Source of the DNA: Neisseriaceae bacterium
Lineage (GTDB): Bacteria > Pseudomonadota > Gammaproteobacteria > Burkholderiales > Neisseriaceae
Assembly (NCBI GenBank): GCA_017989485.1
Contig: JAGNPU010000004.1
Location: 1-17,301, forward strand
Direction of reading: 5' to 3'
Length of the DNA stretch: 17,301 nt
Position 1 is the first letter of the stretch, and every line of letters starts with the position of its first letter. A program made the position numbers and the translations under genes. Below the pieces are notes generated by a model that worked only from the letters and a program-made list of their open reading frames with translations, made no database searches and was not told the DNA's origin. Positions 12,657 through 16,240 of the stretch are shown here, piece after piece.

Positions 12657-13241
12657 GTGGACCAATTAAGGGCAGACTTACAGTTAATTTATGATTGGGT
12701 GCCCAGTGGCAGCCATGTGCTCGACCTTGGCTGTGGTGATGCGTCACTGTTGGCGGCGCTCACCCGCCAAAAAGCCACCACGGGCTATGGCATTGAGCTA
12801 GACACAGAGGCCTTGCTGGCGGCCATGGCCACTGGGGTCAACGTGATCCAGTCGGATTTGGAACAGGGGTTGCAAACCTTTGGTGACCAGACGTTTGACG
12901 TGGTGGTGCTGTCCCAGACCATCCAGGCCATGCACAATACCGAAGACATTTTGCTGGACATGTTGCGCGTGGGCAAGGAGGCGATTGTGACCTTCCCTAA
13001 CTTTGGGTATTGGCGCAACCGATGGCAAATTCTTAAGGGGCAAATGCCGGTGTCGGAAAGCATGCCGTTTGAGTGGTATAACACCCCGAATATTCATTGG
13101 TGTATGGTGAGGGATTTTGACGCCTTATGCCATAAAAACGGCATTAAGGTGTTGGAACGCACGGTCATGAGCGGCGGGCGCCGCATCGATTTTTGGCCCA
13201 ATTTATTGGGCAGCCTGGCGTTTTATCGTGTGGGCCGTTAG
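12657..13241 (+). CDS. metW: Methionine biosynthesis protein MetW
   Basis: 194-aa class I methyltransferase-fold protein. SAM-binding-type motif I is VLDLGCGDASLL (21-32); then GIELD (45-49), SQTIQAMHN, and the family-typical FPNFGYWRNRWQILKGQMPVSE. MetW is known to pair with MetX, and MetXS needs it for homoserine acylation; whether it methylates anything is not established. The GTG start sits directly after the metX stop (12654-12656), with AAGGAG (12645-12650) inside the metX end at 6 nt, so translation is coupled. A terminator follows. Confidence 0.95.
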   Translation: MDQLRADLQLIYDWVPSGSHVLDLGCGDASLLAALTRQKATTGYGIELDTEALLAAMATGVNVIQSDLEQGLQTFGDQTFDVVVLSQTIQAMHNTEDILLDMLRVGKEAIVTFPNFGYWRNRWQILKGQMPVSESMPFEWYNTPNIHWCMVRDFDALCHKNGIKVLERTVMSGGRRIDFWPNLLGSLAFYRVGR

Positions 13242-13260
13242 GCCCGTACGGTGGAGGATC

Positions 13261-13283
13261 AGCAGCCTTAGGCTGCTTTTTTT
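13261..13283 (+). terminator. Rho-independent terminator of metXW
   Basis: A 7-bp stem AGCAGCC (13261-13267) / GGCTGCT (13271-13277) with a 3-nt loop TTA and a T-run from 13277 to 13283. Confidence 0.9.
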
Positions 13284-13337
13284 GTGACCGCTCGGCGTGG
13301 GTGGGTGTTTTTTATGGTTTAGTGACGGCCAGTACAC

Positions 13338-13399
13338 GGTAGCGGGCCCACGGCCCCACCACTCAAACCAAAACCCCGTGGGTCGCGACCGACGCTACC
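13338..13399. other. Foldable GC-rich intergenic segment
   Basis: Outer stem GGTAGCG (13338-13344) / CGCTACC (13393-13399). Inner stem GGCCCAC (13345-13351) / GTGGGTC (13378-13384), with one G-U pair. An alternative local palindrome, GGTCGCGACC (13381-13390), competes with the inner stem. There is no T-run, so it is not a simple terminator. It could be a small dispersed repeat or a structured RNA; I do not recognise it. Confidence 0.4.
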
Positions 13400-13413
13400 C
13401 CAGCAGAACCATC

Positions 13414-13431
13414 AATAGACCATGGTCTATT
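13414..13431. other. 18-bp perfect palindrome
   Basis: AATAGACCATGGTCTATT is fully self-complementary about CCATGG. Such a site could bind a dimeric protein. No gene starts close by: metW ends 173 bp upstream and htpG starts 911 bp downstream. A shorter AAACCATGGTTT palindrome (14186-14197) lies nearer htpG. Confidence 0.4.
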
Positions 13432-13519
13432 TAAAACATACGGTGGCGCCTGCCCGGTACAGAGAGGGGTAAAGCGATTGCCGCTTAGGGCTTTATTTAA
13501 TCTCACCACGCTCATGCAG

Positions 13520-13764
13520 CAGTGAAGTACCGTCCCCTTTAAGCCGCCGAGTCAGGTTCTAGCGGGCCAGATGAAGCAGGCAAACGCTTGTGGTGGCCGA
13601 CCACGCTTTGATAGGAGGCCGCCACTCTTGCCTGCGCTGGCCCGCTAGGTTCTGGGGAGGGCACCCCTTGCGCCAACGGCGTAAGGGGCGGCTGGCCGGG
13701 GTGGCGTTTTCTTTGCATACTTTCTTTTGGCCATGCAAAAGAAAGTCTGTCGCCCTACAGGGCG
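13520..13764 (-). repeat. Structured intergenic repeat, copy A
   Basis: 245 bp, homologous in reverse complement to 13885-14130. Shared exact runs include a 17-mer (CTCTTGCCTGCGCTGGC, 13625-13641). Hairpins: CTAGCGGGCCAG (13559-13570) with CTGGCCCGCTAG (13637-13648), continued by GCAGGCAA (13576-13583) with TTGCCTGC (13628-13635). An 11-bp stem at 13719-13729/13736-13746 (ACTTTCTTTTG with CAAAAGAAAGT). A small CGCCCT/AGGGCG hairpin at 13751-13764. A CCCCTT...AAGGGG hairpin (about 13664-13688). Open frames across it are not supported as genes. Confidence 0.85.
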
Positions 13765-13884
13765 AAAGGCAACGACCGATTAATAGCGACATAGCCGAAG
13801 CACTGATGAGCATTTCCAGTACGGCTAAATCATCATGCGTTCAAGGGTAATGGTTCACATGACTGATGGTTTAGCGTTTTATTT

Positions 13885-14130
13885 CACCCTTCGGGCGACG
13901 TCATTTCTTTTTGGTGGCAAAAAGAAACGAAGCAAAGAAAAAGCCACCCTGCTGAACCGCCCCTCGTGCCTACGGCCCAAGGGGTGCCCTCACCGGACGC
14001 TAGCCAGCCAGCGCAGGCAAGAGCTTGCCCGCCTATAGAAGCGGGGCGGGACGGCGCAAACGTTTTGCCTGCTTCACCTGACTGTCTAGCATCCGCCTCG
14101 GCGGTTCGCTTTACGGGGGACACTTCACTG
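13885..14130 (+). repeat. Structured intergenic repeat, copy B (inverted relative to copy A)
   Basis: 246 bp. Hairpins correspond one by one to copy A: CACCC/GGGCG (13885-13889/13893-13897); a 10-bp TTTCTTTTTG/CAAAAAGAAA stem (13904-13913/13918-13927); a CCCCT...AGGGG hairpin (about 13961-13985); and the long stem CTAGCCAGCCAG (14000-14011) with CTGACTGTCTAG (14078-14089), continued by GCAGGCAA (14013-14020) with TTGCCTGC (14065-14072). It shares the 17-mer GCCAGCGCAGGCAAGAG (14007-14023) with copy A and ends in ACTTCACTG (14122-14130), the exact complement of copy A's outer end. Confidence 0.85.
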
Positions 14131-14264
14131 AATAGTTAGAGGAGTGAGGTTAAAATAAGTTTGCTTATGCGTTCTAAGATAAATCAAACCATGGTTTTCT
14201 GGCAAAAAACAGGGTGTCGCTGGGGGGTGACGCAGCGCAGCGATGGCCGATTATGCCCTGATGG

Positions 14265-14292
14265 CTTGAAATTGGCACAATCGCCCCTAGCT
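14265..14292 (+). promoter_or_regulatory. Sigma-32 (heat-shock) promoter of htpG
   Basis: CTTGAA (14265-14270), followed by A to extend it to CTTGAAA, a 13-bp spacer (14271-14283), and CCCCTAGCT (14284-14292). The RpoH consensus is CTTGAA-N13-17-CCCCATnT, so the -35, the spacing and the CCCC core all fit. The predicted leader is about 43 nt. Confidence 0.7.
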
Positions 14293-14341
14293 TAAGTAGG
14301 TTCGCCCGAAAAGGGCTTGTGGATAAGATTGAGGATTAAGC

Positions 14342-16240
14342 ATGAAGCAAACATTAGGGTTTCAAACAGAAGTCAAACAGCTGCTGCAGTTGATGATTCA
14401 TTCTTTGTATTCCAATAAAGAAATTTTCTTAAGAGAGCTGATCAGCAACGCCGCTGATGCGGCCGATAAATTACGTTTTGAAGGGCTGAACAACGACGGC
14501 CTGTACGAGAACGATCCTGAATTGCGCATCACCGTGACGGCGGATGCCGACAAGCGCACGGTGACCATTAGCGACAACGGCATCGGCATGAACCAAGCCG
14601 AGGTGATTGAACACCTGGGCACGATTGCCAAAAGTGGCACCAAAGCCTTTTTTGAGCAGCTCACCGGCGACGCGCAAAAAGACGCGCACTTAATCGGCCA
14701 GTTTGGGGTGGGGTTTTATTCGGCCTTTATCGTGGCCGATGAGGTGGTGGTTGAGAGCCGTCGTGCGGGCGATCCCGCCGATGCTGGCGTGCGCTGGCAA
14801 AGCCGCGCCGACGGTGAGTTCACGGTGGAAACCATTGAGAAAGCCGGCCGCGGTACCGACATTATTTTGCACCTAAAGGAAGAAGAGCAGGATTACCTGA
14901 GCGATTGGACGCTACGGCGCATCGTGACCACCTACAGCGACCATATTTCGGTGCCGATTTACATGAAAAAAGCGCCTGAATACCAAGAAGATGGCACCGT
15001 GGTGCCCAGCGACGAGCTGGAAGTGGTGAATCAGGCCCAGGCCTTGTGGACGCGCAATAAAAACGACATCAGTGAAGAACAATACCAAGAGTTTTACAAA
15101 CATGTGTCACACGACTTTGACGACGCCATGGCCTGGAGCCATGCACGCGTAGAGGGCCGCCAAGAATACACTGAGCTATTGTATGTGCCGAAACGGGCAC
15201 CGTTTAACCTGTATGAGCGTGAGCAAAAAGGCGGCGTCAAGCTGTATGTGAAGCGCGTATTCATCATGGACGACGTGAACAAGCTCATGCCTAACTATCT
15301 GCGCTTTGTGCGCGGGGTGATCGACAGCAGCGATTTGCCGCTAAACGTGTCGCGTGAACTGTTGCAAGAAAGTAAGGATTTAGACGCCATCCGTGCCGGC
15401 TGTGTGAAGAAAGTCTTGGCCCTGTTAGAAGACGTGGCGGCCAACCGCGCCGACGACTACGCCAGCTTCTGGCGCACGTTTGGCCAAGTGCTGAAAGAGG
15501 GCGTGGGCGAGGATCAGGCCAATCAGGTTCGGGTGGCCAAGCTGTTGCGCTTTGCCTCTACCCACAATGACGACGACGCGCAAAACGTGTCGTTGGCCGA
15601 CTACGTCAGCCGCATGAAGGAAGGGCAAGAAGCCATTTACTACATTACTGCCGATACCTATGCGGCGGCGAAACATAGCCCACACATGGAAATTTTCAAC
15701 AAGAAGGGCGTTGAGGTTTTGCTGTTGTCTGACCGCGTCGACGAGTGGGTGGTGGGGTCATTGTTTGAGTTTGAAGGCAAAAAATTGGCCAGCGTGGCCA
15801 AAGGCACCTTAGACTTGGGCGACATGGCCGATGAAGCAGAAAAACAGGTGCAGGCCGAGCTGGAAGTCAGCAGCCAAGCACTGGTGGCTCAAATGACGGC
15901 TTTGTTGGGCGACAAAGTGGCTGCCGTACGGGCGACCTCACGCCTGGTGGAAAGCCCAGCCTGTTTGGTGGTGGGCGAAACCGACATGAGCCAAAACCTG
16001 GCCCGTATGCTGGCCGAGGCCGGCGCCGGCGACCAAATGCCGCAGACCAAGCCAACCTTAGAGATCAACCCAGACCACATGTTGGTGCGACGCTTGGCCG
16101 ATGAGACGGATGAGCACAAGCAATCCGAGCTGGCGGCCCTGTTGTTTGATCAGGCATTGTTGGCTGAAGGGGGTAAATTGGCCGATCCTGCCAGTTTTGT
16201 GAAACGCATGAATCATTTATTGCTGGAATTAAATCAGTAA
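14342..16240 (+). CDS. htpG: Molecular chaperone HtpG (bacterial Hsp90)
   Basis: 632-aa cytosolic ATP-dependent chaperone that acts as a dimer and remodels client proteins with DnaK. The N-terminal ATPase domain (about 1-215) shows [43 protein letters not shown] sequence, ATP-contacting Asp78 in [18 protein letters not shown] (lid) and [12 protein letters not shown]. The middle domain (about 230-495) has [32 protein letters not shown] sequence and LQESKDL. The C-terminal dimerisation domain ends [14 protein letters not shown] without the eukaryotic MEEVD tail, as expected. Length fits the E. coli protein (624 aa). GAGGA (14331-14335) lies 6 nt before the ATG. It is monocistronic, between a heat-shock promoter and a terminator. 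Confidence 0.98.

Follow-up and report, generated by a model that had tools for sequence, protein, structure and literature searches.

Telomerase RNA contains an H-type pseudoknot in which loop 1, rich in U, occupies the major groove of stem 2. To our knowledge, triple-helix pseudoknots are known only from a handful of RNAs. MITEs, such as the Correia elements of Neisseria, are short, non-autonomous insertions with inverted ends, and integron gene cassettes are structured sites that lie beside single genes of unrelated function. REPs are described as single hairpins of 20 to 40 bp that are tagged with GTAG or CGTC (PMC3733652).

The feature described here lies between two genes in a 17,301-nt stretch of DNA from a member of the Neisseriaceae (the whole stretch is referred to as the window). 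We favor, with moderate confidence, the reading that it is a mobile, non-coding composite of two inverted structured units, that these units belong to a family defined by a pseudoknot with a triple helix, and that the unit works as RNA. An earlier note on this DNA had described two diverged copies of a repeat that share their hairpins; the recognition of a single mobile element, the pseudoknot, the third strand, and the wide distribution go beyond that description.

A composite insertion between metW and htpG

The metW-like gene ends at position 13241 and htpG starts at position 14342, and the spacer between them contains two diverged inverted copies, A and B. Their description in the earlier note as inverted, diverged copies was confirmed. 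One pair of arms (13625-13755 and 13893-14023; 131 nt) is 77% complementary, a second pair (13544-13584 and 14064-14104; 41 nt) is 78% complementary, and the identity between A and B over the half is 73%. Sequence comparison and profile searching placed structured half A at 13520 to 13785 on the plus strand and structured half B, which is inverted, at 13868 to 14131 on the minus strand. Together, A and B make up a single insertion in the metW-htpG spacer, of which each is one inverted half. The whole composite element (13423 to 14191; 769 bp; no strand assigned) has ends that read TGGTYT...AAACCA, and a junction of the AAACC-AT-GGTTT type is present at both ends, the left one in the degenerate form TAGACCATGGTCTA. 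Because the metW-htpG spacer is short and devoid of the element in G001 and G003, two species of the same genus, the element either was inserted after the species split or has been lost. The same site in G002 carries a different, shorter insertion.

A neighboring short element (13315 to 13422; 108 bp; no strand assigned) has ends that read TGGTTT...AGACCA. Short elements of about 86 to 145 bp between such junctions recur, although some may be chance occurrences, as up to two mismatches were allowed in the junctions. In the flanks of L031 to L070, elements of about 86 to 145 bp abut the large element and have the common ends TGGTTT...AAACCA. Many of the short elements, in the region of 13315-13422 and in L031 to L070, contain GTAGGGTGGG...CCCACC palindromes of the GTAG-REP type.

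Copies and fold within the genus

Relatives of the repeat were found in the source genome and throughout the genus, in which the halves recur. Matches to copy A, fragments included, numbered 24 in its own draft genome, 17 in G001, 92 in G002, and 6 in G003. In a survey of 61 relatives, copy A was detected in the four genomes of the genus and in 0 of 33 other genomes of the family; a match to its core was found in one (G060) of 24 genomes from other families, with no more than 12 candidates scored per genome. Plasmid and phage collections contained no match to copy A. A profile search of 82 sequences (80 fetched loci, the window, and L113) yielded 137 hits, 99 of them near full length and 22 of those non-redundant at 93%. 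The halves are arranged convergently in the window and in G002, where the copies are largely convergent pairs of about 680 bp end to end, and as outward pairs in G001. Derivatives with internal deletions, ranging from 99 to 408 bp, are also present in G002. The junction AAACCATGGTTT occurred 71 times in G002, 11 times in G001, 10 times in G000, and 9 times in G003 (reversed control, 0), and an exact junction was located within 90 bp of 48 of the 82 outer ends of G002 halves. The multicopy dispersal and the empty and filled sites are direct observations, and the element shares with MITEs the traits of being multicopy, non-coding, and absent from empty sites. Hin-type serine recombinase genes (L115 to L122) occur in G001, G002, and G003, several of them, by eye, beside fimbrial or secreted-looking genes, and palindromes such as AAACAATTGTTT are found just upstream of some of these genes.

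The claim that A and B keep the same fold was borne out by the alignment of the 22 genus halves. Their consensus fold has 49 pairs, 20 of which have changed on both sides. When the pseudoknot was added (53 pairs, again with both-side changes at 20), 95.6% of cells were paired, compared to 85.7% when partners were shuffled and 39 to 53% when the structure was slid, the last comparison being one that favors the structure because it was derived from the same alignment. The pseudoknot helix itself paired in only 70.1% of cells; by eye, rows of a second subfamily seem to pair it in another register.

The main stem is formed in A by arms at 13559-13570 and 13637-13648 on the plus strand and in B by arms at 14078-14089 and 14000-14011 on the minus strand. 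The letters previously assigned to B were those of the plus strand; in the orientation of A, the arms of B read CTAGACAGTCAG/CTGGCTGGCTAG. The two compensated positions stand nevertheless: position 6 changes from G-C to C-G and position 7 from G-C to A-T. Two further changed positions had been considered mismatches, which is correct for one (A.G), whereas the other is a U.G wobble. Within the genus the main stem exists in several quite different versions (for example, CTAGCGGGCCAG, CTATTGAGCCAG, CTATTGGCCCAG, and CTAGCGAGCCAG), and every version is matched by a complement of its own. Downstream of the main stem in A, on the plus strand, are a G+C hairpin (13664-13688), the letters and lengths of which differ in other copies, the T-rich hairpin discussed below, and a 3' terminal hairpin (13751-13764) identified from the genus alignment and its pairing count. 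The reported shift within the T-rich hairpin is real: counted from the loop, the hairpin has T4/A4 in A (13719-13746) and T5/A5 in B (13903-13928). Two copies in the window's own genome, L096 and L097, have GG/CC changes in this hairpin, on one arm only in L096 and on both arms, with the third strand unchanged, in L097.

With a phylogeny-aware null, no column pair was significant in the genus alone (alignment A1, 22 rows and 49 structure pairs; A2, 15 rows and 71 pairs). The caution in the earlier note that two sequences cannot prove covariation was therefore appropriate, and the case presented here does not rest on the genus; the significance of covariation comes from the wider family. A lack of covariation beyond phylogeny among many copies, which had been named as the outcome that would count against a selected fold, was not seen in the wide set; inside the genus alone, no pair reached significance.

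Distribution of the wider family

When GTDB species genomes were scanned for exact matches to the T-rich hairpin, at least 118 stretches were found, with 80 loci among the matches listed. By their titles, the loci among the matches listed belong to Comamonadaceae, Methylococcales, Thiobacillus, Rhodocyclales, Pasteurellaceae, Xanthomonadales, Neisseriales, Bacteroidota, and others. Upstream of the hairpin, many of the matches listed contain, by eye, two CGAG-type motifs that form a stem, together with a G+C hairpin. In the construction of alignment A3, 14 of the 80 scan loci were left out as Bacteroidota or other, including, in error, one titled Proteobacteria (L187), and 63 of the 67 remaining sequences were kept as non-redundant. 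The covariance model R1 has 76 positions and was built from 63 copies, none of which came from the four genomes of the window's genus. R1 nevertheless found the conserved pseudoknot module of A at 13697 to 13772 on the plus strand (E, 4.9e-21) and that of B at 13876 to 13951 on the minus strand (E, 5.6e-18).

In a survey that included the source genome and in which no more than 13 candidates were scored per genome, R1 had matches with an E value of ≤0.001 in 97 of the 369 species genomes sampled from the class, representing 80 of 272 genera, and 90 of the 369 genomes (as read from the table) had matches with an E value of ≤1e-6. The window has no match in Rfam 15 at gathering thresholds, consistent with the earlier statement that the repeat has no family name. 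In 16 named relatives the only Rfam matches were the rRNA and tRNA of one locus, and lax thresholds gave only low-scoring hits that are probably due to chance. A limited literature search found no description of the element in print. These results indicate a family of bacterial elements that is very widespread and, apparently, uncatalogued. The fold, its conservation, and its dispersal are solid. By extrapolation, bacterial genomes may contain thousands of copies of a triple-helix pseudoknot.

The 80 named loci contributed 577 open frames to a clustering in which the largest clusters were frames through the element itself, and beyond these no cluster was seen in more than 4 of the 80 loci. Spurious open frames that cross the units in L123 to L202 form clusters across species that mimic protein families. 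By eye, some relatives, such as L141, L150, L125, and L176, appear to have a second 3' pseudoknot, in which a hairpin loop, CGGGT, would pair with ACCCG just downstream; it is not evident in the window.

A pseudoknot with a predicted triple helix

Copy A reads, from 5' to 3', GTGGC, TTTTCTTT, ACTTTCTTTTG, the loop GCCATG, and CAAAAGAAAGT. The T-rich hairpin (S2, 13719-13746; loop, 13730-13735; purine strand, 13737-13744) is the core of an H-type pseudoknot, in which the upstream GTGGC (13701-13705), the 5' strand of helix S1, pairs with 13730-13734 of the loop. This helix has 5 bp in A (GTGGC/GCCAT) and reads GTGG/CCAC in B. In this H-type arrangement, with GTGGC paired to the hairpin loop, loop 1 has to span the deep groove of the hairpin and to run parallel to the purine strand. 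The segment TTTTCTTT (L1, 13707-13714), which lies between GTGGC and the hairpin, matches AAAAGAAA of the hairpin in the manner of a third strand in parallel orientation, and the match in A is perfect and in exactly the groove-crossing register. The same parallel relationship is present in B, on the minus strand, where TTTTTCTTT (13934-13942) matches the purine strand AAAAAGAAA (13904-13912) of hairpin S2 (13903-13928).

The third strand and the purine strand change together across relatives. In addition to TTTTCTTT/AAAAGAAA, the combinations TTCTCTTT/AAGAGAAA, TTTCTTTT/AAAGAAAA, TTTGCTTT/AAATGAAA, TTGTCTTT/AATAGAAA, TTCTTTTC/AAGAAAAG, and others were found. Among 129 distinct units, the third strand matched its own purine strand at 8 of 8 positions in 91, at 7 of 8 in 29, and at 6 or fewer in 9; with shuffling, the mean number of 8-of-8 matches was 31.5 (maximum, 44 in 2,000 shuffles). 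A T in the purine strand is accompanied by a G in the third strand, which we take to be a G.T-A triplet. In 135 copies, the combinations were TA 111, CG 18, GT 5, and TG 1 at columns 13/43; TA 115, CG 15, GT 2, CC 2, and TC 1 at columns 14/44; and CG 119, TA 15, and CA 1 at columns 15/45. The natural variation in this family is thus sufficient to read a triplet code of U.A-U, C.G-C, and G.T-A.

Phylogeny-aware covariation analysis, with a null of 200 alignments simulated on the inferred tree, was applied to these 135 copies, which are the ungapped 76-nt hits that differ at 4 or more positions (135 of 175 distinct hits). Only 12 of 2,628 column pairs had an E value of <0.05, and all of them were in the model: five in the hairpin, three in the pseudoknot, and four in third-strand contacts. 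Without any scan locus (79 copies), 10 of 2,628 pairs passed (five hairpin, one pseudoknot, and four third strand), again with none elsewhere. The 63 pattern-selected copies alone gave 4 passing pairs of 2,628, all in the model and two in the pseudoknot; because the scan pattern fixed both the hairpin core and the third strand, the A3 copies carry no evidence on either. Some of the data used in these tests had already served to arrive at the triplex reading. A pseudoknot helix of at least 4 bp was possible in 93 of 110 distinct units, compared to 54.7 in shuffled units (maximum, 69 in 1,000 shuffles). It was also possible in eight of nine listed loci from outside the model (Bacteroidota and others), the exception being L181 with 3 bp; 13 set-aside loci were given, and the other four were duplicates or were not parsed. 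The pseudoknot letters of these loci vary widely (for example, TTGAC/GTCAA and CGTC/GACG).

The outer hairpin, in 76 copies from non-pattern loci (380 cells), had 311 Watson-Crick pairs, 36 G-U pairs, 2 A-C combinations, and 31 other mismatches. Since G-U is far above A-C, it is the sense strand that folds, and it does so as a single strand. Folding of one strand, covarying stems, pseudoknot pairing, and the third-strand code are properties observed in these copies. The covariation in the 135- and 79-copy sets and the excess of G-U over A-C support the earlier proposal that selection acts on the folding of RNA or single-stranded DNA rather than on coding. The asymmetry between G-U and A-C does not separate RNA from DNA, and the triple helix can form in DNA too.

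Outward pairs and enclosed genes

In 11 complete or near-complete genomes, 121 copies were considered (125 rows minus 4 antisense rows that matched only the hairpin). Neighbors less than 5 kb apart formed 37 outward, 4 convergent, and 2 same-direction pairs, and the spacing was 341 to 684 bp in 33 of the 37 outward pairs. Ten wider outward pairs were inspected, six from the scan and class-survey loci and four from the 11-genome pair count, and nine of them enclosed one or more likely genes. The enclosed genes code for a protein with an NYN domain (L189), a DpnII-MboI-like nuclease (L265), Y1_Tnp and a protein of unknown kind (L151), a nucleotidyltransferase and T5orf172 (L292), DUF4760 (L293), a possible PEP-CTERM protein that scored below the cut-off (L291), and unknown proteins (L134, L251, and L261). 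No clear gene was seen in L294. It is possible that wide outward pairs with genes of unrelated kinds are a gene-carrying form of the element; random insertion into the spacer between paired units could also account for the enclosed genes.

RNA or DNA

We consider it probable that each unit is transcribed and acts as RNA. The sense strand of each unit folds into a structure of several stems that terminates in an H-type pseudoknot, with a triple helix in the major groove, and the pseudoknot and triplex might stabilize the RNA or serve as a binding platform. This preference is based on the presence of only one unit in folding sense per strand of an outward pair, an arrangement more easily reconciled with two transcripts directed outward than with a strand-specific DNA end. 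Several findings count against it: the weak promoter scan, the lack of a recurring protein partner, the lack of genus-only covariation, the pairing of only 70.1% of pseudoknot-helix cells in the genus halves, the changed hairpin with an unchanged third strand in L097, the 9 of 129 units with third-strand matches at 6 or fewer positions, the 31 mismatched cells of the outer hairpin, and the ability of a triple helix to form in DNA. In a simple search for promoters, the region 13200-14400 gave 2 weak sites, compared to 0.7 (standard deviation, 0.8) in shuffled sequence; both are on the minus strand at 14176-14278 and would read into B, and none was found on the plus strand for A. If the units are transcribed, they represent a large missing class of RNA. 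A more ambitious proposal, which we regard as plausible but put somewhat below an even chance, is a new class of mobile structured RNA with a telomerase-like triple-helix pseudoknot, present in about a quarter of the sampled species of the class and in Bacteroidota, with outward pairs that can acquire and carry single genes.

The principal alternative, which we judge unlikely but worth serious attention, is that the unit works as DNA, as a large structured transposon end recognized in cruciform or single-stranded form; the two members of an outward pair would then be the left and right ends of the transposon, and the genes between them its cargo. The predominance of outward pairs (37 versus 4 and 2), the enclosure by some of them of one or two unrelated genes, and the mobility evident from empty and filled sites are consistent with such an end. 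However, the asymmetry between G-U and A-C indicates one folding strand, and an inverted pair presents only one folding end per strand; a single-strand transposon would need both ends on one strand, and the outward pair appears to suit RNA better. Furthermore, no transposase was seen by eye among recurring neighbors, and the outer boundaries differ between lineages. If the unit does act as DNA, it would represent a structured mobile end of a new kind, capable of carrying genes that include some for nuclease-like proteins or nucleotidyltransferases.

Movement of the element

The boundaries vary by lineage (by eye), with AAACC-AT-GGTTT in the genus, CAGGG ends and a 10-bp duplication in G309, and REP palindromes around pairs in G142. 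At L284 and L285, a single unit lies in a miniature element with CAGGGCAAACGCATTAAAA ends, flanked at L284 (G309) by a 10-bp target duplication. The recurring neighbors of the units include, by eye, no transposase, integrase, or common protein partner, and in the loci and genomes examined no transposase or recombinase was linked to the units, with the exception of the Y1_Tnp gene in L151. We infer that the structured unit is carried by whatever mobilizes its surroundings, and the element, itself non-autonomous, may spread by riding on transposition or recombination systems, with different systems in different lineages.

For the genus only, one such system might be a Hin-type serine recombinase that moves the element at AAACC-AT-GGTTT, a suggestion that concerns movement and not the nature of the unit and that we consider improbable. 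The junctions, which presumably resemble hix sites, show by eye no duplication beyond AT and are shared by several unrelated short elements with the same ends, and Hin-type genes are present in three of the four genus genomes. However, exact AAACCNNGGTTT was found beside none of 8 recombinase genes in fetched flanks of up to 1.5 kb (3 of 8 with one mismatch), and no recombinase was found in G000, which is 81% complete.

The proposal that identifies the copies with the terminal inverted repeats of RAYT/TIRYT tyrosine transposases (TIRtrons) is largely refuted and retains very little probability. Long, partly self-complementary repeats are described for TIRtrons (PMC3733652), and the outward pair in L151 encloses a Y1_Tnp gene, but none of 40 Y1_Tnp matches in the 11 genomes lies within 5 kb of any of the 121 copies (nearest, 8.6 kb), and G422, with 11 copies, has no Y1_Tnp match. 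In these genomes, this speaks against a REP/RAYT association as well. Just as hard to sustain is a neutral, hairpin-rich selfish DNA with arms kept alike not by selection but by template-switch correction of imperfect palindromes, a known process: both halves contain hairpins, but template switching makes inverted copies whereas the third strand mirrors the hairpin arm, the third-strand code includes G opposite T, which template switching would not make, and the pseudoknot pairs the loop with a strand outside its own hairpin.

Comparison with known systems

Like integron gene cassettes, the units combine a structured site with adjacent single genes that are functionally unrelated, but an assignment to cassettes was rejected because the units pair inverted and outward rather than directly and no integrase was seen by eye among recurring neighbors. 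The element shares with MITEs such as Correia short non-autonomous insertions, inverted ends, and internal-deletion derivatives; unlike them, it has long structured halves, and no common terminal repeat or transposase was found across lineages. REPs, BIMEs, and GTAG/CGTC palindromes are likewise intergenic, multicopy, and palindromic, and they were seen by eye beside units. In contrast to REPs, the unit is about 250 nt long, includes a pseudoknot, and has no link to a Y1 transposase in the 11 genomes tested. Unlike telomerase RNA, the unit is an interspersed bacterial repeat, with no telomerase domain or reverse transcriptase seen nearby, and its triplet changes include G.T-A. Like telomerase RNA and other triple-helix pseudoknots, it has the H-type arrangement, in which U.A-U and C.G-C triples are possible in register.
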